This document shows positions 1 through 36,852 of a stretch of 39,230 nt of DNA, piece after piece (positions within the stretch are counted from its first letter, which is position 1; each line of letters begins with the position of its first letter). A program made the position numbers and the translations under genes. A model generated the notes under the pieces. It was given only the letters and a program-made list of their open reading frames with translations. It was not told where the DNA came from and did no database searches. This DNA comes from Desulfoluna sp. (GTDB lineage Bacteria > Desulfobacterota > Desulfobacteria > Desulfobacterales > Desulfolunaceae): positions 1 through 39,230 of the forward strand of contig NZ_JAQYWB010000054.1 of the NCBI RefSeq assembly GCF_030145185.1, read 5' to 3'.

Positions 1-142
1 GTATTCTGTCTGATTTTCTCACCCTTCGGGCGAGCCGGGTGCACTCATCTGCCGCGTTATCAGAGCTTTGAGGTAAACCACTACATCTTCAGCTCTGATG
101 CCTTGCATATGAGCGCACCCAACTCGTGAAATATCCGGGATA
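1..142 (-). mobile_element. Partial miniature inverted-repeat element M1 (right end)
   Basis: The segment is the reverse complement of most of the element at 3313-3722, minus its internal insertion. It ends in CTCGTGAAATATCCGGGA followed by TA (141-142), matching the terminal repeat of the other copies. An internal hairpin is formed by CAGAGCT (61-67) and AGCTCTG (91-97). The other end lies outside the window. It has no coding capacity; the TIR plus TA target identifies it as a non-autonomous, MITE-like element by inference. Confidence 0.6.
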
Positions 143-177
143 GCCAGTGGTTTTAAAAAGAATAAAGGAGGTCGCAG

Positions 178-621
178 GTGAATAATTTTAAGCCGATCCT
201 TGTTTTTTCCGGCGCACTGAATTTTCTTTTTGCAATTTTCCAGGTCGTTATAAGCTTTTCACCCTCACTGAGCCTGTACTTTGGCGCGCCAGAAGCCTTG
301 GTTGTAAATAGTTGTCTTCTTATTTTTGTAAGCTTTATCATCGCAGGGATTGTCGCGATATTTGGACTCTATGCCATCTCCGGGGCGGGCTATTTTCGTC
401 CCTTGCCGTGGCTGAAGCCGATGCTTGTGGTGATATGCTGCGTCTATCTCCTGCGTGGCTTGATGCTTATCCCGGAATGTCTGGTCGTGGCAGGCGTTAT
501 GCAGGCTTCCATACCCATTGCCCCACGTTTTGTCGTCTTTTCGGCCGGGTCTCTATTGTTTGGGCTGCTTTTTGTCATGGGGACCGTGGGCGGGTGGAAA
601 ACGTTTCCGAGTAGAGGATAG
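178..621 (+). CDS. Hypothetical four-helix integral membrane protein
   Basis: This is a 147-residue protein with a GTG start at 178, chosen because AAAGGAGGT lies at 164-172, an almost perfect ribosome binding site with 5-6 nt spacing. Four hydrophobic segments are visible, at about residues 7-28, 43-66, 79-97 and 117-139, with short loops and a basic C-terminus (KTFPSRG), so it should sit in the inner membrane. I see no catalytic motif and do not recognise the family; the size and topology resemble small DUF-type membrane proteins, which gives no function. It stands alone: miniature element M1 ends 35 bp upstream and repeats follow downstream, so it is probably monocistronic. Confidence 0.8.
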   Translation: MNNFKPILVFSGALNFLFAIFQVVISFSPSLSLYFGAPEALVVNSCLLIFVSFIIAGIVAIFGLYAISGAGYFRPLPWLKPMLVVICCVYLLRGLMLIPECLVVAGVMQASIPIAPRFVVFSAGSLLFGLLFVMGTVGGWKTFPSRG

Positions 622-872
622 AAATTTAATTTTATTCGGGGCGTTAAATTCGATGAATCGTTTTTAACCTGTTTTCCCACCCGTGGGTGAAAATGTGATG
701 TGGAATTCTCGTTATGAACCAGGGGAGCCAGAGGACAGGCGAAAAAATGTGATATTGAATCTCATCCCATGATGATTTCTTTTTTCGTCATTACTGCCCC
801 AAAAAAGTTTGATACCGACGGGTGGTTCGAGCTGGATGTTGGTGAATCATTGCACCTTGGCGGAAATTGGCC

Positions 873-1049
873 ACGAAAAAAGCCGCACAGGAGTGCGGCG
901 CTCCATCGGATATCTCGGATAGGGGCAGGTGATATGAGCCCGAATCGTCGGGCCTTGTCCCCTTTTTGATTCCGTCTTCTCTTGTGTTTTTCAGCGGCGC
1001 AGCCGCATCTGCGTGAATCTGTGCTCATCTGTGGCTGAATTTTTTTTTA
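873..1049 (+). repeat. Family B hairpin repeat, copy B1
   Basis: B1 holds the core AAAAAAGCCGCACAGGAGTGCGGC, whose arms GCCGCAC/GTGCGGC form a strong stem. It is followed by the shared tail ending in CATCTGCGTGAATCTGTG and TGGCTGAAT. Other copies are at 14402, 20526, 20991, 21671 and 24846. Read on the minus strand the stem is followed by a T run, so it could terminate minus-strand transcription. The rest of 622-872 shows no gene or motif that I can support, apart from a weak stem near 674-690. Confidence 0.75.
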
Positions 1050-1051
1050 AC

Positions 1052-1115
1052 AGTGATGGAGCGTAGCGACTCCTCGAACGAAGCACGAAGAACCAAGCAC
1101 CAAGAACCTTTTTTT
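1052..1115 (+). repeat. Family C repeat, copy C1
   Basis: The segment begins AGTGATGGAGCGTAGCGACT and continues with degenerate direct repeats of the type AAGCACGAAGAACC before a T run. It abuts the 3' end of the acyl-CoA synthetase gene. Near-identical copies are at 21941-22003 and 26660-26724; the last also abuts the 3' end of a minus-strand gene. Confidence 0.75.
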
Positions 1116-2819
1116 CTATCTGTCCCACCCCCCTGCAGCCCGCAGCTCTTCCACGATGTCCTCAGCCCGTGTCACAAGCTTCATGAGGTCCACCTTGTTG
1201 ACGTTGTTAACGGGGAATTGTTCGCCCACGGGCCAGAAGTGGATGTGTGAGGGCCGTTTGTAGGAGGCGATGTTTTTGCAGTAGTCGGCCAGCTCTTCTT
1301 CCGTGACGCCTCCCTCTTCATTGGGTTGAACAAAGGCAAAAACGCCGTCGGTGAAGAGGTCGTGGGGGGCGCCCACGACCTGGGCCTGGTTGACCTTCGG
1401 GTGTCTGGAGAGGAAGTCAGACACTTCATCGGGGAAGACAAGGTAGCCTTTGGGTTTGATCACGAATTTGCGGCGACCGGAGAAGACAATGGCGTCATAG
1501 CCGCCCTTGGGAGCGAGGGAGCCCATGTCGCCGGTGTAGAGGATGCCTTCGGTGGATCGGCAGGCGCGGGTGGCCTCCGGGTTGTTGACGTAGCCGAGAA
1601 AAACAATGCCGCCTTCGACGCAGATTTCGCCGACCTCTCCTTTGGTGAGCTCCTCGCCTGCGGTGCCGTCCTCGTTCATGGGGCTTCGGATCGTGACGGG
1701 GGCGAGGTCGGGGAAGAACTGGCCTACCTGACCGGCCATTTCGGAAACGGAGATCCCTTTGGGAGTGGCTGAGAAGAAGCCGCCGGACTCGGTCATGCCG
1801 TAGGCCGTGCCGAAGAGGGGGGACATCTCGGCGAGTTTTTCGAGGAAGGCCGTGTCCACGGAGCTGCCGCCGTAGAGGGTGAAGCGGAGGCTGCTTCGGT
1901 CGTATTCCTCGTAGTTGGGCAGAGCCCAGAGCATGCGAAAGTGGGTGGGGACACCGCCGATGAAGGTACACTGGTGGGCTCCCAGGGCTTCCATGGCCTT
2001 GTCCGGGGCGAAGATGCCCATGGAGGCCACGGCGCCTCCTGCATACCAGGCGGTCATGGGGCCCTGGGAGGTGCCGGCCACGTGGCTGGTGGGCATGATG
2101 TTCAAGAGGCGGAAGTTGGATCCGTAGACACTGGCTCCCCGTGAGGCCACCTCGTTGTTGATGAGGATGTTCTCATGGCAGAGAAGGGCGGGCTTGGGGT
2201 CTCCGGTGGTGCCGGTGGTGAAGATGATGAGGGCCGGATCACGTTGCGTGAGGCCGCCTTCCACGGCCTGCACCGCGGTGCGGAGGGTCGCGTCTTCTGA
2301 CAGCGCCTCAAGGGCCTTTTCACCGAAAACGTCTCCGAAATTTGTGGAGCTTTGCTCCATGTCGTCGGGCAGTCCAAAGGGCATCCACTGCACGATATGC
2401 TCAACCGACGGGCAGTCACGTTTTACCGCATCCACTACCCCTGAAAAATTTTTGATCATTGTGTTGCCCGGGCAGACAAAGGCCTTGGCCTCGATTTTTT
2501 GGATATCCCGAGTGACCTCGTGGGGCTGAAGGCGAATGTCGATGGGGGAGATGATGATGCCGGCTTTCAGGCATCCATAGACGAGAAGAAAAAACTCCGG
2601 CACCGCCAGAAACTGGGTGATGAGGATGTCGCCCCGTGTGAGCCCCATCTTCGTTAACGCCATGGCGTAGCGGTCGCTTGCCTCGTTAAACTCTCGATAG
2701 GAAAAACGCTGACCGGTCTCCACCGAAATAAGCGCGTCATTTTCAGGGGTCAATAACGCCCACTTCTGGACGTAGTCGGAGATGAGAGGCAACTGCCATG
2801 CCGTGTAATCTTTCACCAT
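1116..2819 (-). CDS. AMP-forming acyl-CoA synthetase / class I adenylate-forming enzyme
   Basis: A 567-residue ANL-superfamily enzyme that should activate a carboxylic acid as acyl-AMP and transfer it to CoA in the cytoplasm. The start at 2819 (MVKDYTAW) is preferred over an upstream in-frame ATG because AGGAGAG lies at 2825-2831. Visible core motifs are the phosphate loop FTTGTTGDPKPA (200-211, with Pro-Ala where family members often have Gly), YGMTES (340-345), YTGD (428-431), the hinge FSGRRKFVIKPKG (446-458), and a C-terminal NKVDL with Lys542 in the place of the catalytic A10 lysine. Length is normal for the family. Substrate cannot be read from sequence; a fatty or aromatic acid ligase is plausible. 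The gene is monocistronic as far as visible, with no partner dehydrogenase or thioesterase next to it. Confidence 0.9.
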   Translation of the reverse strand: MVKDYTAWQLPLISDYVQKWALLTPENDALISVETGQRFSYREFNEASDRYAMALTKMGLTRGDILITQFLAVPEFFLLVYGCLKAGIIISPIDIRLQPHEVTRDIQKIEAKAFVCPGNTMIKNFSGVVDAVKRDCPSVEHIVQWMPFGLPDDMEQSSTNFGDVFGEKALEALSEDATLRTAVQAVEGGLTQRDPALIIFTTGTTGDPKPALLCHENILINNEVASRGASVYGSNFRLLNIMPTSHVAGTSQGPMTAWYAGGAVASMGIFAPDKAMEALGAHQCTFIGGVPTHFRMLWALPNYEEYDRSSLRFTLYGGSSVDTAFLEKLAEMSPLFGTAYGMTESGGFFSATPKGISVSEMAGQVGQFFPDLAPVTIRSPMNEDGTAGEELTKGEVGEICVEGGIVFLGYVNNPEATRACRSTEGILYTGDMGSLAPKGGYDAIVFSGRRKFVIKPKGYLVFPDEVSDFLSRHPKVNQAQVVGAPHDLFTDGVFAFVQPNEEGGVTEEELADYCKNIASYKRPSHIHFWPVGEQFPVNNVNKVDLMKLVTRAEDIVEELRAAGGWDR

Positions 2820-3019
2820 TGTTTCTCTCCTTTGCCTTCGTTTGTATTCCAACCAACCCCCAAGGTCTTAAACCTCGGATAAGGCATGTGTAAAGGTTTT
2901 TGACACAAGGACAGGCAATGATCCGTGAGGGGTGACGAAGGACGTTCCCTGACGTGTGAACGGAAGGGAATAACAAGGGCGAGACGCCTGTCTCATGCGG
3001 CGTAAGGGATGATGAGTAA

Positions 3020-3146
3020 GGTTGCAGGGAAAAAATAAAAGAACAAAAAACAATGCCTCCGGCGGCAAGGTGGCGCCACCTTGAAAGCGGGTTTGCGAAT
3101 GCGCGCTGGGTGGCGTCACTTCGGGCTGAAATGCGTCCGCATTCGC
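3020..3146 (+). repeat. Family A two-stem repeat (copy A1) with N-type left end
   Basis: The segment starts GGTTGCAGGGAAAAAATAAA, like the left end of the 160-bp element at 3380, followed by TGCCTCCGGCGGC. Stem 1 is CAAGGTGGC/GCCACCTTG, followed by GAAAGC. Stem 2 is GCGAATGCG (3095-3103) pairing with CGCATTCGC (3138-3146). No matching right end is seen, so this copy may be truncated. The flanks 2820-3019 and 3147-3312 hold no recognisable gene. Confidence 0.65.
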
Positions 3147-3312
3147 GTGAAGTGTAAGGAACCGCAGAGTGCGTCGCACGTGCAGGCGTTATTGATGGTC
3201 AGAATTCAATTCAACCGTTGACTTTAACCGGAATAACTCGGTGGCGGGGTGGAGGGATGGGGTAGGGGGCGCTTGCGCACCGCTGAAGCGCCGCACCGAT
3301 CATCGAAGCCTA

Positions 3313-3722
3313 TCCCGGATATTTCACGAGTTGGGTGCGCTCATACGCAAGGCATCAGAGCTGAAGATGTAGTGGTTTAGGTTGCAGGAAAATAATAAAA
3401 GCACAAAAAGCAATGCCTCCGGCGGCAAGGTGAGCCACCTTGAAAGCAGTTTACCTCTGGGCTTTGCCCCTCGTTCCTCGGGTCAAATCCCAGAGGTATT
3501 CAGGGGAGCCACCTGTAGCATTATTTATTTCCACCAACCTTACCTCAAAGCTCTGATAACGCAGAAGATGGGTGCACTCGGCTCGCCCGAAGGGTGAAGA
3601 AAGCGAGTAGAAAAGGGTGAATTCCATTTTGCATTTTTGAAATGTCTATATACTTCTTAGTAACACTTCGCAATAACTCATCATTGCCTTGGCGTGGTTA
3701 TTTTCTCATGAAATATTCGGGT
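3313..3722 (+). mobile_element. Miniature inverted-repeat element M2 (TA-flanked), interrupted
   Basis: The left end TCCCGGATATTTCACGAG and right end CTCATGAAATATTCGGGT are imperfect inverted repeats, each flanked by TA (3311-3312 and 3723-3724). The interior matches M1 (1-142) in inverse orientation, and the right subterminal part matches M3 (5082-5161). No transposase is encoded, so it would depend on one in trans; TA duplication is typical of Tc1/mariner/IS630-type enzymes. The right end lies 1 bp from the stop codon of the 230-residue gene. The element carries the nested 160-bp insertion at 3380-3539. Confidence 0.7.
3380..3539 (+). mobile_element. 160-bp miniature element N nested inside M2
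   Basis: M1 reads GTGGTTTACCTCAAAG uninterrupted, whereas here the same sequence is split by 160 bp with TTA on both sides (3377-3379, 3540-3542). The ends GGTTGCAGGAAAATAATAAA and TTATTTATTTCCACCAACC are imperfect inverted repeats. Inside is a family A two-stem structure (copy A2): CAAGGTG/CACCTTG, then ACCTCTGGG (3453-3461) pairing with CCCAGAGGT (3489-3497). It has no ORF of its own. Confidence 0.75.
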
Positions 3723-3725
3723 TAG

Positions 3726-4418
3726 CTATTGGAGGGTAGAGAGGATGACATCAGGGGTATTATCATGTGTTCTGAATCCCATGGTCAGGTATTTTGTCGG
3801 GGGCAGGCGTTTATGAAAAATGACGATATCTTCTGTTAAGCGATGGAACTCTTTTTTGAAAATTCTGCCGTAGGCTGTGAACATGTCACCTTTGATGATT
3901 CGAATACGGTGTGTGTCTTCAAAGAGCATGCCTTTGGCATGGATCATCCATAAATCTCCAGTGGGTGTTGTCTCATCGATCATGGGGGGCGTCAGGGTGA
4001 ATGCCTTGTGGTGAAATTCTTCGGCAGAGGAGAAAGCAGAGAAAAAATCTTTCGATTTTTCTCGAGCGGACGTCGATCCGAGAAGGTTTTTTTCATCATG
4101 AAGGGTAATAAAAAGCAGTTCTTTTTTATCCGTTTTAGAATGATAGTATATCGTATTCTCGGATATCTTTTTGTCTGATTTTACGTAGTGTTTGGGTATA
4201 CATGCCGAAAGTCCGAAAAAATCAATCCGGTTTTCGGATTTTGTGGCCCGGGGTTTCGTTTGGACGGATACGATATCTGCTTCATAGAAATATTCCGGGT
4301 AGACCCATTGGAAGGGGGAAGATCGGTAATGCGAAAAATCAGAAAGAGAGTCATCCGTAGCCAATGAACATGTGACGAAAAAGGGGATCATTAATATTCC
4401 AAGTAAAAGCTTATGCAT
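3726..4418 (-). CDS. Hypothetical exported protein
   Basis: A 230-residue protein starting MHKLLLGILMIPFF at 4418; TGGAGA lies about 6 nt upstream. A longer in-frame reading from 4547 exists but would be encoded by a repeat and overlap the lipocalin gene, so it is rejected. The N-terminus is a signal peptide (hydrophobic residues 3-17, FFVTCSLA), either cleaved after LA or, less likely, a non-canonical lipobox at Cys17. The mature part is about 210 residues, basic and AT-rich, without a motif I recognise. The order lipocalin then this gene, same strand, 97 bp apart with a hairpin repeat between, would allow co-transcription only through that hairpin. Element M2 ends 1 bp past its stop codon. 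Confidence 0.75.
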   Translation of the reverse strand: MHKLLLGILMIPFFVTCSLATDDSLSDFSHYRSSPFQWVYPEYFYEADIVSVQTKPRATKSENRIDFFGLSACIPKHYVKSDKKISENTIYYHSKTDKKELLFITLHDEKNLLGSTSAREKSKDFFSAFSSAEEFHHKAFTLTPPMIDETTPTGDLWMIHAKGMLFEDTHRIRIIKGDMFTAYGRIFKKEFHRLTEDIVIFHKRLPPTKYLTMGFRTHDNTPDVILSTLQ

Positions 4419-4460
4419 CCTGTCTCCATTCGATGTGTATTGAAGAAGCGCCGCAAAAAA

Positions 4461-4525
4461 GGCCTCCGGCGGCAAGGTGGGCCACCTTGAAAGCAGGTTT
4501 TGCTTAGCCTTCGTGTCACGAAGGC
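4461..4525 (+). repeat. Family A two-stem repeat, copy A3
   Basis: GGCCTCCGGCGGC is followed by stem 1 CAAGGTG/CACCTTG, GAAAGC, then a perfect stem GCCTTCGTG/CACGAAGGC (4507-4525) with a one-base loop. The lipocalin stop codon (minus strand, 4516-4518) lies at the centre of this second stem. The minus-strand transcript therefore ends in two consecutive hairpins followed by a T run, a plausible terminator. Confidence 0.7.
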
Positions 4526-5043
4526 GGTAATTTTTCGTGATCGACAAATATCAATGTGTCTGTTTGAAAGCCCATCTTTTTTGCTTTTTCTATGAGCCGC
4601 TCTTTTAAGTCTGGGTGTATCTTTGGGCTTCTGGCCAGAAGCCATAAATAAGATGTGTCCGGGCCGCAAACGAGCGCATGCTGGTAATTTCCATGGTCGA
4701 GGTCAAAAACGATATAAGCGCCATAAAAGGGTCTGAAGAACGAAACTTTCAGGTACCCCTGATCCGAGTCGCCAACAAAATACGCCTTGCCTTCGGCCTC
4801 TTTCCAAGCGTTTTCTTCAGCCGAATACCCCCGATTTAATACTCTGATCCCCCCATCATCACGCATACTGTAATCAGCCGTAACTCGGGATAATCCCCGC
4901 TCAAATGAATGATCCAGTCTCGCAATTTCATACCATGTGCCCATATATTTTTCTGGCTTGAAATGATCAACGGGTTTTACATTTTCCGGCATTCCAACAC
5001 ACCCCGTCAGGAATAGAATGATGGCTATGGATAGTTTTTTCAT
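4516..5043 (-). CDS. blc: Bacterial lipocalin (Blc-type outer-membrane lipoprotein)
   Basis: A 175-residue lipocalin. The start at 5043 follows AAGGAGAAG. The signal peptide ends in the lipobox LTGC (Cys15), predicting a lipid-anchored, probably outer-membrane protein. The lipocalin signature GTWYEIARLDHSFERG is at 35-50, followed by VTADYS, and the Blc-typical SYLWLLARSP is at 131-140. Length matches bacterial Blc (about 170-180). Family members bind lysophospholipids or other small hydrophobic ligands. A truncated paralogue is at 7260-7712. An 80-bp element (5082-5161) sits between this gene and its likely promoter, 37 bp before the start codon, whereas the paralogue's leader lacks it. Confidence 0.93.
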   Translation of the reverse strand: MKKLSIAIILFLTGCVGMPENVKPVDHFKPEKYMGTWYEIARLDHSFERGLSRVTADYSMRDDGGIRVLNRGYSAEENAWKEAEGKAYFVGDSDQGYLKVSFFRPFYGAYIVFDLDHGNYQHALVCGPDTSYLWLLARSPKIHPDLKERLIEKAKKMGFQTDTLIFVDHEKLPPS

Positions 5044-5390
5044 CGTTTCTTCTCCTTAGTTACCGATCACAGCCGTGTCTAACCCGAATATTTCAGGAGT
5101 CGAGTGCCGTAATAAAAAGTTACTGCATTGGCATGATCGCTTTGTCATGAAATATTCGGGTTAAGGGGGGCCGACGTCTATCAAGCCGATTCGTTAAGAT
5201 TTCACAGGTTCCGATAAACAGTCCATTGGAGATGATTCTTGGGCTGGATTTTTAGAATGAATTTCAATTAAAAAGGTGGGATAGTTGTTTGGGGAAAGTG
5301 TCTCACAGGGTGGTGTGGGGGTCAAGTGGATTTCGCCCGTCACCTGTGCCTATAGGAGGGGTAGGGAAGGGTTGCGTATGTCCAATATCC
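4723..5390 (-). repeat. Direct duplication, copy 1 (lipocalin 5' part plus upstream DNA)
   Basis: This segment matches 7392-7965 in the same orientation: about 320 bp of lipocalin coding DNA plus about 230 bp of upstream DNA. Shared landmarks upstream are CGTCTATCAAGCCGATT, TTTTTAGAATGAATTTCAAT, GTGTCTCACAGGGTG and GGGAAGGGTTGCGTAT. Copy 1 additionally carries element M3. The stretch 5391-5530 beyond it has no gene. Confidence 0.8.
5082..5161 (+). mobile_element. 80-bp miniature inverted-repeat element M3
   Basis: It has perfect 14-bp terminal inverted repeats, ACCCGAATATTTCA (5082-5095) and TGAAATATTCGGGT (5148-5161), flanked by TA on both sides (5080-5081, 5162-5163). The duplicated lipocalin leader at 7741-7750 has a single TATA at this point and no element, giving a paralogous empty site. 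The right half resembles the right end of M2. It is too short to encode anything and would form a hairpin in the lipocalin leader RNA. Confidence 0.8.
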
Positions 5391-5532
5391 AAGCGATCCC
5401 TTTCGCTGTGTCGATTCGTCCTGGCTCCCCAGTATCCGGTACCTGACTAAGGCCGAAGAGAAACGCAAGCATATTGTGCCTTTAATAGGCTGGTAGCATA
5501 TGTCAAGTATGTAATATTTTAAGATATTATTA

Positions 5533-7259: not shown

Positions 7260-7712
7260 TCAACAGCTGTTGCACGGGTAAAAAGGCAGGAGAACTGACA
7301 TCCCGGCCACCAATTTGTCACACAGCGCATAGGAAGAGTGGTCCTGTCGCCCAAAAGCGTATGTTGCCTGTCCCCTTAACCTAATAAAAGAATAAAAGGG
7401 GCCGAAGAACGAAACTTTCAGGTACCCCTGATCCGAGCCGCCAACAAAATAAGCCTTGCCTTCGGCCTCTTTCCATGCGTTTTCTTCATCCGAATACCCC
7501 CGATTCAGTACGCGAATCCCCCCATCATCGCGCAAACTGTAATCAGCCGTAACTCGGGATAATCCCCGCTCAAATGAATGATCCAGTCTCGCAATTTCAT
7601 ACCATGTGCCCATATATTTTTCTGGCTTGAAACGATCAACGGGTTTTACATTTTCCGGCATTCCAACACACCCCGTCAGGAATAGAATGAATGCTATGGA
7701 TAGCTTTTTCAT
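7260..7712 (-). pseudogene. Truncated second copy of the lipocalin gene
   Basis: The first 108 codons are almost identical to the lipocalin at 4516-5043 (same signal peptide, lipobox LTGC, GTWYEIARLDHSFERG). After FFGPFYS the frame runs into unrelated sequence and ends at 150 residues. It therefore lacks the last beta-strands, the conserved SYLWLLARSP segment and the C-terminal helix, and should not fold as a lipocalin. Its start codon and most of its leader are intact, so it may still be transcribed. It is best read as a partial duplication; selection for a shortened protein is unlikely but not excluded. The tail region contains a 21-mer found twice more in the window (7355-7375). Confidence 0.85.
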
Positions 7713-8111: not shown

Positions 8112-11100
8112 TTATGAATTGTTTTCAGTGTTTACATTCAATGCGTTGCATAAGCGGTCTCGGGCCGTCTGGGTCAGTCGGGCAATGCCGAGGCTGCGCG
8201 CTATTTCGGTCGGATCGCCGTCCAGAGATAATAGCATGTCGATTGCGCAAATTTCGTCATCACAGATATATTCCACTTTTCTCATGTCAGCATTACGGTC
8301 CTTGTAGCGCGCAGGTGGGATGTTACCAAGCGTATCTTTGGGCCAGTAAAATGTGCCCACAGTATCGAGAGTCTTGTCTCGATGGCCTTGCGCTAACGTT
8401 GTCACAATGTCACGGATCTGGCGTCCTGCGCGTTTGAATCCGTGATGGTGGGTAATTCTTCGGACCAGCACATCTTCATGGATGGGGCCTTCCGTATCGA
8501 TGACATGCTCGACCATGTCCGACAGGCGGGGTGTGTACTCTAAAGAATAGAATGCATCCGGGTTTGACTGGTATCGATCCTCATTGAGGAGGGCTACAAC
8601 GTAGCTGTGATTATCATGGATCACTAAGTTTTTTGCACACTCTGATGGTTGGTGGGGTGGGATGTCATCCGTCGGAGTGTGTGGTATCGAGCGATGGGCG
8701 GCCATGGGGAACCTTGGCGACGTGACCGTCGGGTCGAATACGATCGGGTTGTCAGCGACGGCGTCCTGATCGGTACAAGCCGGCTCCGGGTAAGGCGGGG
8801 GATCGGCAACAATGGCTTCTGACGTCTGAGTCACTTCTTCTTGTTTCTGGCGGTCTGCCTCAAGGTGGCCCTGCAACGCGTTGTGAAGTGTTTCAATTGC
8901 CTTGGTTCGGTGGGTCCACCAATCGGTCGACCAGACTCGAAATAGCGTCCACCCCAATCCCTCAAGTACCGATTGGCGAATTTTATCTCGTTCCCGTGCA
9001 AAAGCGGAGCTGTGGTACATGGCCCCATCGCACTCGATCCCGGCGAGGTAGAGACCCGGCTTATCCGGGTGGGTGATCCCCAAGTCTATCCGGTAGGCGG
9101 ACACGCCAATCTGGGGGTGGACATCCCATCCCTTGTCCCGCAGCGCTCGTGCGACGGCTGATTCGAACGGGGACTCAAAATCTCCGATGGAGCCATAGGT
9201 CGCCGCTCCCAGGGCCGAAGGGCCGCGTTCAGCGTATTCCAGAAAATGTTTCAGGTCGGCGACCCCTCGAGCCTGGGTCCGGGATAGGTCAATTTTATCA
9301 GGGCTGAGGGTTGAGAACACAAGCATTTCTGAGCGAGACCGCGTCATGGCCACGTTCAGGCGCCGTTCGCCCCCTTCTCGGTTCAAGGGGCCGAAGTTCA
9401 TGGTGAGATGGCCACTCTGGTCCGGGCCGTAAGTGATGCTGAAGAGTATCACATCGCGCTCATCCCCTTGCACCGTCTCGAGGTTCTTCACAAAGACGGG
9501 TTCTATCGAACTTTCGGAGGAGAATGCCCATTCAATGCCGGGGTTCTTGGAACGGGCGTCGTCCAGAAGGTTTTCGATGAGGGACTGCTGTTCCGTGTTG
9601 AAGGTCACCACCCCCAGGGATTGTTTTCGAACCTCAGGGTCTGCGTGGGTAAGGCGGCGCAGGATTTCCGCCACAATTGCTTTTGCTTCGCCTTGATTGT
9701 GGCGCGCTTGACCGCGTGCATAGAACCCCTCGGGTCGTACCAATCGAACTCCGTGATCCGGGTGAACGGGTGCTGGAAATGTGATCAGTCCGTTATTGTA
9801 GTATCGACTGTTGGAGAACGCGATAAGGCTTTCTCGGCGGGATCGGTAATGCAGGTTGAGCGTTCGTTGTGGAATGCAGGCTCCCAACATTTCGTCCAGG
9901 ATACTCTCCAGATCTCCTTCTGCATTTACGTCACCGTCCGGATCGTCATCGGAACGAGCGAAGAAATTCGTTGGTGGCATCTGTTTCGGATCCCCTGCGA
10001 TGATGGCTTGACGCCCGCGCGCCAGGGCTCCGACTGCGTCCCAAACAGTGATCTGAGATGCCTCATCGAAGATAACCACATCGAACAGCGCCTGTTCAGC
10101 CGGGAGGTATTGGGCGACTGAAAGAGGGGACATCATAAGGCACGGCGCAAGCGTGGTGAGAACGTCCGGGATCTCTTTGATCAGCTGTCGAACCGGTTTG
10201 TGCCTGGTTTTTTTCTGAAGTTCGTGACGCAGAACACCCCAGGAAGATTTACGTTTTACATCTTCCGATCCCGGTAGGTTCCCTGCCAACTTGGCTCCGA
10301 TGTATGCTGCCGTGAGTGCCTGGAAGTTGCTGTCAATTAGACGGAAATTCTCGATGTCTGCCATGTGTTCGGGGGTCGAGAAGGTACGTAAGACGTCATC
10401 TTCGCCGATGACCATGCCCGACCACCACGCGCAATAAGCGGCTTCGAAGGTCTTTTTGATCTCTTCGGTGGGAACGAGCCCCTTTTCGATCGCCTTGATT
10501 AGGGGGCTGAGTCCCAGATCCATCGCCTCAGTGCGGCGGTGGCGCCATCCACACCAGTCATGCAGTTCTGCATGACGAGCAGCGATGCTGTCGGCCGTAT
10601 CCCGCATCGCGTCCAACGCCTTGCCTTTTTTTGCGAAGAGGTCGCGTATGGACTGACCGGCAATGGCCTCGAAGGCCTCGCAGGTTTCGTGAAGTGCCTG
10701 CTGTGCAGATAAAAAATCTTGCGCGGCCCTCCCCACTGCTGCCTCCGGTGCCAGCAGGTCGTTGCCGTCATTCATGAGGCTTCGGATTTTGCCTCTCACC
10801 TCCATCAGTGCCTGCGCGTTGTCGGCCAATTTGCCCACGGCAATGCGAGCCCTCCTCCCCAAGGTCTCCAAATCGAACGCCACATCCGGGCTTGTGGTGT
10901 GTCCCGTCCACTCCTTGAAGTGGGAAAGATGGGTGTCCAGGCGGTCGATGGCTTCGCCTTCTTCACGCAACCGTTTGAGTGTTGACGCATCAATAGCTGG
11001 ATCAGGTGTGCCTTGTGCGCCCGCCGTTTTCATCGCCTTGATCACGCGGCGGCGTGCGAAAAAGCTTTTGGGCCACCAAGCCTCCTGCGCTTCCCTCCAT

Positions 11101-15840: not shown

Positions 15841-16096
15841 ATAGATGATACATTTTTCTGTATGTTAAGACCTTTACAGCATACGTCCTGGAAAACCGCT
15901 AAAATCCACAACCGATTTTTTTTCAGTCCCTTGAAGGGGGGACGTTCAACGCCGTGCGAGTGATGACATAATAAACAATTTACTGGCCTGTATCGGTCCT
16001 AACCATCCGACGAATCCGAGGCAGATTGTTCGGATCTTTGGTCTTTTACTTTCTAATATCTGATGTAGATGAATTGGTTTTATAGGAATTAATTGT
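15841..16096. other. Non-coding stretch before the insertion sequence
   Basis: No gene, repeat family or hairpin that I can support. The DNA is AT-rich near the IS insertion point. Confidence 0.4.
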
Positions 16097-16101
16097 TAAT
16101 A

Positions 16102-17637
16102 ACTCAAGTTTCGGACTTGATGTAATATTATGATTTCAGGAAGGATATTGCTGTTTTTTGATCTTTTAAAATTGAAACACCTCAGATGATTGTGTAAACA
16201 GTATGTGCTAACAAACTAAAACAACAATCAAAAGAGGCAACACGTGAATACCTTGATATCTTCTGAAGCGCAACCAAAATCTATTGATCTCCTGAACGAT
16301 CTTGATTTTGTGATGAAAAAGTCACGATTTCGAACATTACTCAATCGGTTCGGTTTCAAGAAAACAAGAGGAACTTCAGTGGTTGATATCCTCATGTCGT
16401 TGTTCTTACTTCTTTTCACCCGGCAAAGTCTTTCCGAAGGGATAACAGACAACGATAATGTAGGCTTCGGCAAAGATGCGTTGTACTCTCTTCTCAACAA
16501 CTCAAAATGCAACTGGCGAAGGCTTTTATTGGCGGTTGGGTATCAAGCATACAACGTTATTTCTAAATTGACCGATCGTGAGAAGGTTTTAATCATAGAC
16601 ACCACCGCCTATGGCCGTAATCGGTCTAAAAATGTTGAACTTCTCAGCCGTGTGAAAGATCACAGTGCAAAGAGATATGTTCGGGGCTTTCGTCTACAGG
16701 CAGCGGCAATTTCTGATGGACACAGCCTCATTCCTGTTGATTTTTCTCTACTTGCCAGTGCAGACCCAAAGAAACGTTTCTGCGAGATGCGTACCGATAT
16801 TGATAAACGGACAATAGGGTTTAGAAGAAGGCTCGAAGCTCTTAAAAAAGCACCGTTCCTTGCGGTTGAAATGGCTCATCGTATAAAAAATGAAGGGCTA
16901 CAATTCAATTATATCCTCGTAGATTCATGGTACAGCGATCCTAAAACAGTTCTGGAACTGCAAAAATCAGCACCGGTAATTTGTATGATGAAGAAGGGAC
17001 GTACCAAATATCAAGTTGGCGAAAAAAGCTGACGTTAAAACAGATTTATGCCTCTCTTTCGAAAAGACGTGGACGAGCAAGAATATTGGCGTCTCAAAAA
17101 ATTATGATAAACGAGATCGAGTCGGCAAAGATCGTGTTTGTTCGTCATAATTCAAAGAAAGATTGGCTTGCAATCATGTCAACAGATCCCCAGTTACCTG
17201 CCGAAGAGATTGTCAGGATATACGGTAAGCGTTGGGATATCGAAGTGTTCTTTAAAATGGCTAAGCAGCACCTGCGGCTTGAATCGGAGATACAAAGTCG
17301 CAATTTTGATGCGTTGATTGCCCAAATATCAGTAGTTTTCATTCGATATCAATTTATGGCTTGGCGGTTGAGGCAGCATGATGACCCCAGGACATTCGGT
17401 GAACTTTTCAGGTTCTGTTCACAAGTGATCAAAGATATTACTCTCATGGAGTCTGTCGAACGCATACTGACAATTGTGATGGAATATATTAGCCAAATCA
17501 AATCTGTAGACAATAGCTTAAGCAAGCAAATCAAAGAGACCTTTGAAGTCTGCATGAATCTTTTTTTTAGCTCTACTGACGTAAGCATTAGAACTACTTT
17601 GCAAAATTAGCTCAAACTGCAAGTCCGAAACTTGAGT
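16102..17637 (+). mobile_element. IS4-family insertion sequence, complete with TSD
   Basis: A 1536-bp element with perfect 18-bp terminal inverted repeats, ACTCAAGTTTCGGACTTG at 16102-16119 and its complement at 17620-17637. It is flanked by a 5-bp target duplication TAATA (16097-16101, 17638-17642). It contains one transposase gene in two frames. The perfect ends and duplication point to a recent insertion. It lies between the two co-regulated lipoprotein genes and disrupts no recognisable ORF. Confidence 0.92.
16244..17610 (+). pseudogene. IS4-family transposase, frameshifted
   Basis: A DDE transposase that would catalyse cut-and-paste transposition of the surrounding IS. It starts with GTG at 16244 after AGAGG. 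The first frame (to 17032, 262 residues) carries the first Asp (LIIDTTAYGRNRSK) and second Asp (ILVDSWYSDP). The second frame (readable from about 17000 to 17610) carries the catalytic Glu in YGKRWDIEVFFKMAK, matching the IS4 signature Y-x2-R-x3-E-x6-K. The frames meet at a run of six A (17022-17027); one extra A would restore VGEKKLTLKQIYA and a full protein of about 455 residues. A one-base deletion is the simplest reading. Slippage on the A run, or an assembly error, could restore activity. Confidence 0.88.
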
Positions 17638-17823
17638 TAATAAGTGAGCTTACTATCTTTGTGATTACGCCGCAAATTTTTTTTGAGCACAAGCGTATAT
17701 TGCCTGTCCCCAGATCTATTACAGGTCTACTTGTCTTTTACTGGTCTTCATGTCAAGACCTGACCGCTTCCTCCGACACACATGGAAAGCCGCCCTTGGG
17801 TGGGCAGCTTTCATTTTACCGAG

Positions 17824-35937: not shown

Positions 35938-36540
35938 ATGGATGCATTAAGTAATCTGTTGGATATGGGCGCGGAGTGGGTTTTTGGCGGGCTGGTGATC
36001 CCGCTGATGAAGTGCCTGGCCTCGTTGATCAGCCTGTGTTTTGTTCCTGTTTCCGGTCTGTCGCCAGCTTGGCAGATCTGTGTGGCGGCGCTTCTGGGCG
36101 CGCTGCTCTCCATGGCGTTGACCCGGATGCGGAAAGGGGGGGAGGCCACCGAGGCCGAGGGGCGGTTTAAAGAACGCCTGGCCGCCAAACGAAGCGCGTG
36201 CGAGATTGATGACAAGGCGGTGCGAAGTGCGGTATATAAGGGGCTGGATCAAGAAGCCGATGAGGCGTATGAGCACGTGATGCTGGATACGTTTTTTGAA
36301 ATGGGCGTCACCTATCTGTTTCCCATGTTTCTTTTCCTGCTTTGGATTGAATACCATGCCTTCTCTCCGGATCAACTGGAGTTGCTCACGGGCAGCCGGG
36401 GGCTGGTGCTGCCCGGGGGTCCGCAAACCATCGGGGCTGGGGCGTTGTATCTTTATCTTTATAATTTTACGTTGATCACGGCAGCATTGGGGCGATGGGG
36501 GATGAAGAAGGGGAAGAGGGCGATAGGCGATAGGCAATAG
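35938..36540 (+). CDS. Hypothetical membrane protein with cytoplasmic charged loop
   Basis: A 200-residue protein; ATG 35938 follows TGAGGT. Hydrophobic segments are at about 17-39, 45-64, 113-133 and 158-180; residues 66-108 form a charged, helical loop ([20 protein letters not shown]). The spacing of TM pair, charged coil and two TM recalls small Oxa1-superfamily or flotation-type proteins, but no motif settles it; I treat the function as unknown. The last residues (KRAIGDRQ) are encoded by the first units of the GGCRATA array, so the original stop has probably been lost to the array. The hairpin 9 bp upstream leaves its promoter unclear. Confidence 0.7.
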
Positions 36541-36679
36541 GCGATAGGCAATAGGCAATAGGCGATAGGCGATAGGCAATAGGCGATAGGCAATAGGCAA
36601 TAGGCGATAGGCGATAGGCAATAGGCAATAGGCCATGGGCGATAGGTCATAGGCGATAGGTCATAGGCGAGGGGCGAGG
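36519..36679 (+). repeat. GGCRATA heptamer tandem array
   Basis: Sixteen uninterrupted 7-bp units, GGCGATA or GGCAATA, run from 36519 to 36630. Seven degenerate units (GGCCATG, GGTCATA, GGCGAGG) continue to 36679. The G/A variants follow the order GGAGAA-GGAGAA-GGAA, a 42-bp higher-order period. Both strands remain open through it, which generates spurious long reading frames. A shorter relative is at 38879-38908. Confidence 0.92.
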
Positions 36680-36852
36680 AGTCGCTCGACCATCCATTAT
36701 AAAAAAGCCATGCGCCTGTGGCGACATCTTAAGCTTTCAGGGCTCCCATCCTCTTGATCGTTACAATAGCGGGTATATCCGGTCACGGTGGGAAAGAGTG
36801 GCGGTTTGCCGGAATTTAATTCATTCTCATCATTTCGGGCTTCCCGATGAAA

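Follow-up and report, generated by a model that had tools for sequence, protein, structure and literature searches.

The window analyzed here is a stretch of 39,230 nucleotides that makes up the entire contig C127 in the draft assembly of a Desulfoluna sp. genome. Toward its left end, adjoining an AMP-ligase gene, lies a non-coding element of 408 bp (3314–3721) that encloses a second, smaller element. No listed open reading frame of 80 or more amino acids overlaps it, and an Rfam scan of positions 1–5400 at E values up to 1 returned two weak matches (best E 0.17), neither of them in 3311–3724. Elsewhere, the window holds two lipocalin genes (4516–5043 and 7260–7712, 95% identical over 300 bp of DNA) that flank a gene for a metallo-beta-lactamase-fold protein, an array of GGCGATA/GGCAATA heptamers (36491–36686), and a terminator-like AAAAAGCCGCACAGGAGTGCGGC-type palindrome that recurs at 871, 14455, 20580, 21050, 21723, 24845, and 35669. 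The features that bear on the small elements are as follows.

1–139, reverse strand: outer copy truncated at the contig start but with an uninterrupted insertion site; right end at 124, flank ATAG at 140–143 (inverted repeats of 70 nt at 99% and 63 nt at 90%)
3019–3160, forward strand: relative of the inner element with the same left end and stem 1 and another second stem (a matching right end was looked for and not found)
3310–3313, unstranded: left 4-bp flank of the outer element, CTAT, which differs from the right flank, TTAG
3314–3379, forward strand: outer element (MITE), first piece, element positions 1–66 (nhmmer profile match), with the left inverted end at 3314–3329
3377–3379, unstranded: left copy of the target duplication TTA, in the apical loop of the outer hairpin (from the profile overlap; the uninterrupted loop of other copies reads TTTACC)
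3380–3539, forward strand: inner element, 160 bp, with imperfect inverted ends, stem 1 at about 3415–3446 and stem 2 at about 3453–3497 (the 160-bp gap; the boundaries recur in other copies)
3540–3542, unstranded: right copy of the target duplication TTA
3540–3721, forward strand: outer element, second piece, element positions 64–245 (nhmmer profile match), with the right inverted end at 3706–3721
3722–3725, unstranded: right 4-bp flank of the outer element, TTAG
5083–5160, forward strand: 78-bp internally deleted outer element with flanks CTAA/TTAA

A profile built from 74 uninterrupted outer copies splits over this stretch in nhmmer, with model positions 1–66 falling at 3314–3379 and positions 64–245 at 3540–3721. 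Between the two pieces lie a gap of 160 bp (3380–3539) and an overlap of three model positions, TTA, a combination that indicates a clean insertion with a 3-bp duplication. Subtraction of 163 bp from the 408 bp leaves 245 bp, the modal length of the outer family. A first-pass annotation, made from the sequence alone, had described an element within an element, and the exact split of the profile with TTA at both junctions bears this out. Its further claim, that the inner element has imperfect inverted ends and a TTA duplication of its own, likewise stands, with the same boundaries recurring in seven other two-ended copies. The copy at the left window edge, which it had taken as the intact version (1–142), does present the uninterrupted site but is itself cut by the contig start, with about 139 of 245 bp remaining.

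The outer and inner families and their target sites

The outer element is non-coding, with 16-bp inverted ends CCCGGATATTTCAYGA and a length of 245 bp. Matches to these ends with at most one mismatch number 256 forward and 270 reverse in its own genome, against 0 and 1 for a control pattern. At two ends per copy this would correspond to about 260 copies, or about 1% of the genome; as four contigs (C127, C94, C147, and C150) end inside outer copies, the copy numbers in the assembly are probably low. Five congeners, G001 to G005, are placed in the same genus, making six genus genomes in all. The family is well represented in three of them, with forward and reverse matches of 48 and 62 in G001, 79 and 62 in G002, and 81 and 86 in G005, while G004 has 1 and 0 and G003 none on either strand; numbers elsewhere in the order are small, and some match is present in 29 of 58 genomes, its own included. 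A 47-base outer pattern recovered 27 stretches from a genome collection in which records of the own genome may be left out, all of them from Desulfoluna spongiiphila, D. butyratoxydans, and D. limicola. Its range reaches slightly beyond Desulfoluna, since a genome from another family of the order (G031) carries a complete 245-bp pair of ends with CTAA flanks (L077, 1501–1745) that is 72% identical to the outer element over the first 122 bp.

Complete copies, taken as pairs of ends with at most three mismatches in each, number 106 (63 from the own genome and 43 from congener loci), in a sample biased by its retrieval: 27 stretches were fetched by a match to part of the hairpin half and loci L001 to L030 by similarity to the window element. 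Their lengths cluster tightly, with 74 at 236–250 bp, 30 shorter, and 2 longer, and with 48 of the 106 at the modal 245 bp. The 4-bp flanks are identical in 69 of the 106 copies, as against 16.9 ± 3.4 when the right flanks are shuffled among copies (20,000 shuffles, maximum 34), and the excess is seen both in the own genome (40 of 63; shuffled mean, 10.6) and in the congeners (29 of 43; shuffled mean, 6.5). Other lengths of duplication are nearly absent from the 63 own copies, with 7 at 1 bp, 1 at 2 bp, and none at 3 bp or at 5–8 bp. When the 69 identical pairs are read on the strand of the locus, so that CTAA and TTAG represent one target, 49 are CTAA, TTAG, or TTAA, 10 are ATAG or CTAT (one base off YTAR), and 10 are others. 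The outer duplication is 4-bp NTAN, mostly YTAR, and the "TA" that the first-pass annotation had given as the flank is only its center. Shortness, lack of coding capacity, inverted ends, and a fixed 4-bp duplication are the marks of a MITE, and the outer family displays them all, the window copy's own flanks departing from the last.

A comparable family is the Chunjie MITE of Geobacter uraniireducens, whose published description gives an element of 235 bp with 37 further copies of 178–235 bp and 57 partial ones (PMC10969869). As described there, it resembles the outer family in being multi-copy and of similar size, with conserved inverted ends and direct repeats; in contrast, the outer family belongs to another organism, is more numerous, and hosts other elements, and the likeness is drawn from the published description. 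By its 4-bp YTAR-like duplication, and by that feature alone, the outer family fits IS5, for which a YTAR target duplication is reported (PMC10359306), or IS701, reported to duplicate exactly 4 bp (PMC2266710). By eye, CCCGGATATTTCAYGA is off the IS701 end consensus ---YACT-Y--YR, which is itself not representative of the whole IS701 family (PMC2266710). A further difference from both is that the DDE families searched (PF01609 for the IS5 type) yielded no transposase gene with outer ends. A literature search for MITEs or repeats in Desulfoluna turned up no paper on them, which is weak evidence.

The inner element is bounded by imperfect inverted ends of about 25 bp, GGTTGC.../...CAACC. The 160-bp query gave 595 first-look candidates in the own genome, 40 of which were scored, and there are at least eight two-ended copies of 158–160 bp in this genome, with identical 3-bp flanks in five of the eight (TTA four times and TAA once). 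The flanks differ in the copies at L012, L016, and L025, the last of which would match with its ends shifted by one base, and two congener copies (L087 and L088), inspected by eye, have unequal 3-bp flanks. With inverted ends and a target duplication, the inner element also answers to the description of a MITE, and an empty site is known for one copy. The two families thus differ in their target duplications, 4-bp NTAN in one and 3-bp TTA or TAA in the other, as the first-pass annotation had proposed.

The inner sequence (3379–3540) has a folding energy of −64.7 kcal/mol on the given strand and −67.9 kcal/mol on the other. Its core, stem 1 (CCTCCGGCGGCAAGGTG...CACCTTGAAAGC), often with stem 2, is far commoner than the 160-bp unit: a core profile finds 38 matches in 420 kb of the own genome not chosen for the core, and 64 (53 after deduplication, with 20 close to full length) in a set of 514 kb, some of whose loci were fetched for the core. 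All six genus genomes have core matches, G003 just four. The two-stem structure, whose constancy had been suggested as a check, is not constant, as a different second stem follows the same inner left end at window position 3019 and in L007, and the core abounds without the 160-bp ends. Because the core is commoner outside the 160-bp unit and the second stem can be replaced, the inner family carries a mosaic of palindromic modules that also occur alone.

Abundant palindromic repeats in mosaics, in genomes that also have Y1 genes (15 transposase matches in the own genome), recall the REP/BIME and RAYT systems as described in PMC3733652. The inner unit might, by this likeness, be a REP-like palindrome moved by tyrosine (Y1/RAYT-type) transposases instead of a DDE-type MITE, with TTA as a part of the recognized target, given the great abundance of the palindromic two-stem core and the presence of Y1 transposase genes. 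We consider this unlikely. In contrast to that system, inverted ends bound the 160-bp unit, and comparison with a known empty site shows its 3-bp duplication. Moreover, REP/RAYT repeats are recognized by flanking or clustering at RAYT genes, and the 30 of 67 Y1 loci covered show no enrichment of the inner core. In the own genome, the Y1 loci contain 1 core match in 17 kb, as compared with 38 in the 420 kb of background (0.6 versus 0.9 per 10 kb); in the congeners without G003, the counts are 5 in 67 kb of Y1 loci and 30 in 164 kb of G001 and G005 stretches (0.7 versus 1.8 per 10 kb). These are small numbers, and an alternative count, with 6 matches in 90 kb and 63 in 514 kb, has a background that includes loci fetched for the inner element.

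Filled and uninterrupted sites and nesting at other loci

The filled copy in the window probably has a history beyond the insertion. Its outer flanks, CTAT and TTAG, show no 4-bp duplication; its arms, compared by eye, belong to two subfamilies (TTGGGTGCGCTCAT on the left and ATGGGTGCACTCGG on the right); and its left piece, flank included, matches the window-edge copy at 99% identity over 70 nt. As its arms come from two subfamilies and its outer flanks are unequal, the copy has probably also been reshaped by recombination between outer copies. The same features, in a draft genome in which several contigs end in outer copies, might be taken to mean that the whole filled copy is a chimera of assembly or recombination rather than the product of a simple insertion into one outer copy. 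This seems to us very unlikely, since exact inner ends and an exact TTA duplication relative to the uninterrupted copies are not expected of a chimera; moreover, similar arm chimeras are seen in 2 of the 74 intact copies (L006 and L036:3324), and L036:3324 has identical flanks.

With identical sequences counted once, the insertion site is represented by 80 distinct contexts, 53 from the own genome and 27 from congeners. Of these, 78 are uninterrupted, one (L134) is diverged but uninterrupted, and one, the window copy, is filled (79, 1, and 1 of 81 with other trimming). A profile search that took in 514 kb from the own genome and 574 kb from congener loci, with copies counted once by sequence since some loci overlap, recovered 86 distinct outer copies unsplit and 2 split, the window copy and one in L124 of G005. 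The first-pass annotation had held that its reading would fail if the 160-bp segment were present in all outer copies of other genomes; it is missing from 79 of the 80 contexts. That the short outer form arose by deletion from an ancestral element of 408 bp that contained the segment is hardly credible, for although internal losses are common in the family (30 of the 106 complete copies fall below 236 bp), such an origin would need repeated removal of exactly one TTA plus 160 bp to account for these 79 contexts, and the segment is present by itself at other places, between its own ends and with identical 3-bp flanks in 4 of the 7 other two-ended copies.

An empty site orthologous to the window copy was sought in G005 and G002, in which the protein of the adjoining AMP-ligase gene is 81% identical; the stretch upstream of this gene has no outer element in either, and synteny is broken there, with no precise site readable. 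Similarly, an outer copy upstream of sucC has no blastn counterpart upstream of sucC in the five other genus genomes (stretches L196 to L200).

The first-pass annotation had also proposed a search for further filled and empty pairs. None of the 79 other contexts is filled at the same site, but nesting was encountered at L007, L124, and L032. At L007 (1504–1960, on contig C89), the order is reversed: the host is a relative of the inner element with a different second stem, and the insert is a 239-bp outer copy with flanks CTAT/CTAA. With the outer flanks joined, this locus aligns across the junction to uninterrupted relatives in L032 (173 bp, 82%) and at 3019–3159 of the window (141 bp, 81%). 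At L124 (5714–6140), in G005 (D. butyratoxydans), a 427-bp outer copy with flanks TTAA/TTAA carries a different palindromic insert in its other half; this insert terminates with a GTAACTGTTCAG-type motif, and the copy lacks about 18 outer positions. Finally, at L032 (about 8216–8333), a small element with ends AACCCGGC/GCCGGGTT interrupts the right end of the outer copy upstream of sucC, with AATATT on both sides (junctions by eye) and with stretches 95–96% identical on C149 and C29.

L037:12358–12720 was considered as a second clean case of outer within inner and rejected, as the right half of the inner element does not resume; L004:1641–1795, where an inner element is joined to a portion of an outer copy, would count at most as a truncated second case. 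Several loci (L031, L032, L042, L046, L049, and others) also contain elements of about 210–630 bp between inverted GTAACTATTCAGC ends (e.g., L031 3891–4503 and L032 2156–2467), with 32 end matches at up to one mismatch in 420 kb.

A clean nested insertion is an ordinary kind of event. For the archaeon Haloquadratum walsbyi, Table 5 of one study lists 192 insertions of mobile elements into mobile elements among MITEs, PATEs, and SMRs (PMC3119063), which resemble the present case in that small transposase-free elements sit inside other elements. Apart from the organism and the elements being different, that table has no entry for MITE in MITE, its MITEs being entered as 13 in PATE, 17 in IS605-type elements, and 1 in SMR-A (PMC3119063).

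Transposases and the proposed course of events

Three DDE families were searched for a gene that might mobilize these elements. PF01609 is found at 3 places in the own genome and at 25 across the six genus genomes, the own included. PF13546, searched in the own genome, has a single place, the broken transposase at about 16090–17640 of the window, which is frameshifted, reads PF13546 and then PF01609, and lies between inverted ACTCAAGTTTCGGACTTG-like ends (identified by eye). PF13701, also searched in the own genome, gave nothing above the cut-off, and its one sub-cut-off match, in L054, is accompanied by two unpaired outer right ends. No PF01609 or PF13546 place is flanked by outer ends. Near matches to the outer end (3–4 mismatches) at 7 of 22 congener PF01609 loci were rejected as ends, the sequence being conserved on both sides of them; at L173, the inverted repeats that bracket the PF01609 gene differ from the outer ends; and the inner left end has two weak matches only at the 22 loci (up to 6 mismatches; L185 and L188).

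We also considered intervals of 2.7–4 kb between outer ends as possible autonomous partners. In the five viewed in the sampled own genome, the frames, read by eye, were those of ordinary genes (sucC/sucD, a chemotaxis receptor, an autotransporter-like protein, sugar-metabolism enzymes, and others) with no transposase, and the candidates were dropped. Beyond the genus, six genomes (G006 of the same family; G019, G021, G027, G031, and G044 of the order) have 44 outer end matches; 30 were scanned for a second end, and 14 of these 30 also for frames. The scans showed ends without a partner, pairs that were short or degenerate, and genes of the host, with no transposase recognized. A plasmid search with 36 bases from the right end of the outer element returned five matches, all weak and partial (best E 4), and one with a whole outer copy returned none; a 20-base outer end pattern matched two viral contigs (L171 and L172).

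The first-pass annotation had called both families active or recently active. This is unproven, as the search of three DDE families gave no transposase gene with matching ends; the closest pair among the 74 aligned outer copies, a sample of the about 260, is 96.7% identical, and the best inner match over most of the unit reaches 92% identity, with shorter partial matches at up to 94% (among the 40 of 595 candidates scored).

The reading that we favor, at a probability of roughly 85%, is that two MITE families with different target rules occur here, one inserted in the other. Both would be non-autonomous, each presumably moved by a transposase of DDE chemistry supplied in trans. The outer 245-bp family would insert at 4-bp NTAN sites, mostly YTAR, and its inverted ends appear sufficient for mobility, because forms without the hairpin sit in 4-bp duplications of their own. 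The inner 160-bp family would insert at TTA/TAA and duplicate 3 bp. In the window, the inner element would have entered TTTA in the apical loop of an outer copy, duplicating TTA, and we infer that it arrived after the outer element. Counted against this reading are the unmatched outer flanks of the window copy, the unequal flanks in 3 of 8 inner copies and in the two congener copies, and the failure to find a transposase gene with these ends in the three DDE families searched.

The hairpin half of the outer element

In the filled copy, the inner insertion occupies the apical loop of the outer hairpin. For this structure, the alignment of 74 copies supports 31 base pairs in four helices, with 97.3% of cells paired and 10 pairs changed on both sides. 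Sliding the partners drops the pairing to 25–52%, and double-change cells number 59 against 23.6 ± 3.9 after shuffling (0 of 500 shuffles reach 59), in a comparison that ignores relatedness. Column pairs 21–103 and 28–96 contribute 25 double changes each, largely marking one subfamily, so that there are fewer events than cells. Helix 1, formed by the inverted ends, is 98.3% paired in the 74 copies, a figure favored by the choice of copies through their ends.

A simple MITE that decays after insertion is expected to change evenly along its length. The outer element does not. Among 30 full-length copies of the own genome, chosen by end matches and not by the hairpin, nearest neighbors differ at 135 of 2676 positions (5.0%) in the hairpin half, from which the ends were excluded, and at 402 of 2578 (15.6%) in the other half, which differs more in 23 of 25 pairs. 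All 74 copies give the same picture, with 5.0% in the hairpin half and 15.5% in the other over 60 pairs (alignment columns 18–125 versus 126–237). The loop columns, at about 0.94–0.95, are conserved at least as well as the outer stem columns, at 0.86–0.93.

A role of the hairpin half as a cis requirement for transposition was considered and rejected, as copies without it carry their own duplications. A form that lacks outer positions 14–111 is present in four copies from two species, three in the own genome and one in G005 (L035 827–973, L044 15428–15574, L031 19388–19541, and L122 3394–3540), each with identical 4-bp flanks, and similar losses with other breakpoints recur in the family.

The slow change of the hairpin half may reflect selection, gene conversion, or a bias arising from few source copies. 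It is possible, though on balance doubtful, that selection (or gene conversion) keeps this half as a structured unit that is more than mere transposon filler; what points this way is the roughly threefold slower change, a loop conserved at least like the stems, and the covariation of the stems, even though copies without the hairpin can transpose. Such a unit, dispersed by the MITE, might act as a regulatory RNA or as a hairpin bound by protein, and the inner insertion at 3380–3539 would then interrupt a conserved loop.

For Desulfoluna, these observations would put two events, one for each miniature family, in order, with 79 other contexts serving as an internal empty-site control. More generally, if the slow evolution of the hairpin half is due to selection, the outer family would represent a bacterial MITE that spreads a maintained structured unit.
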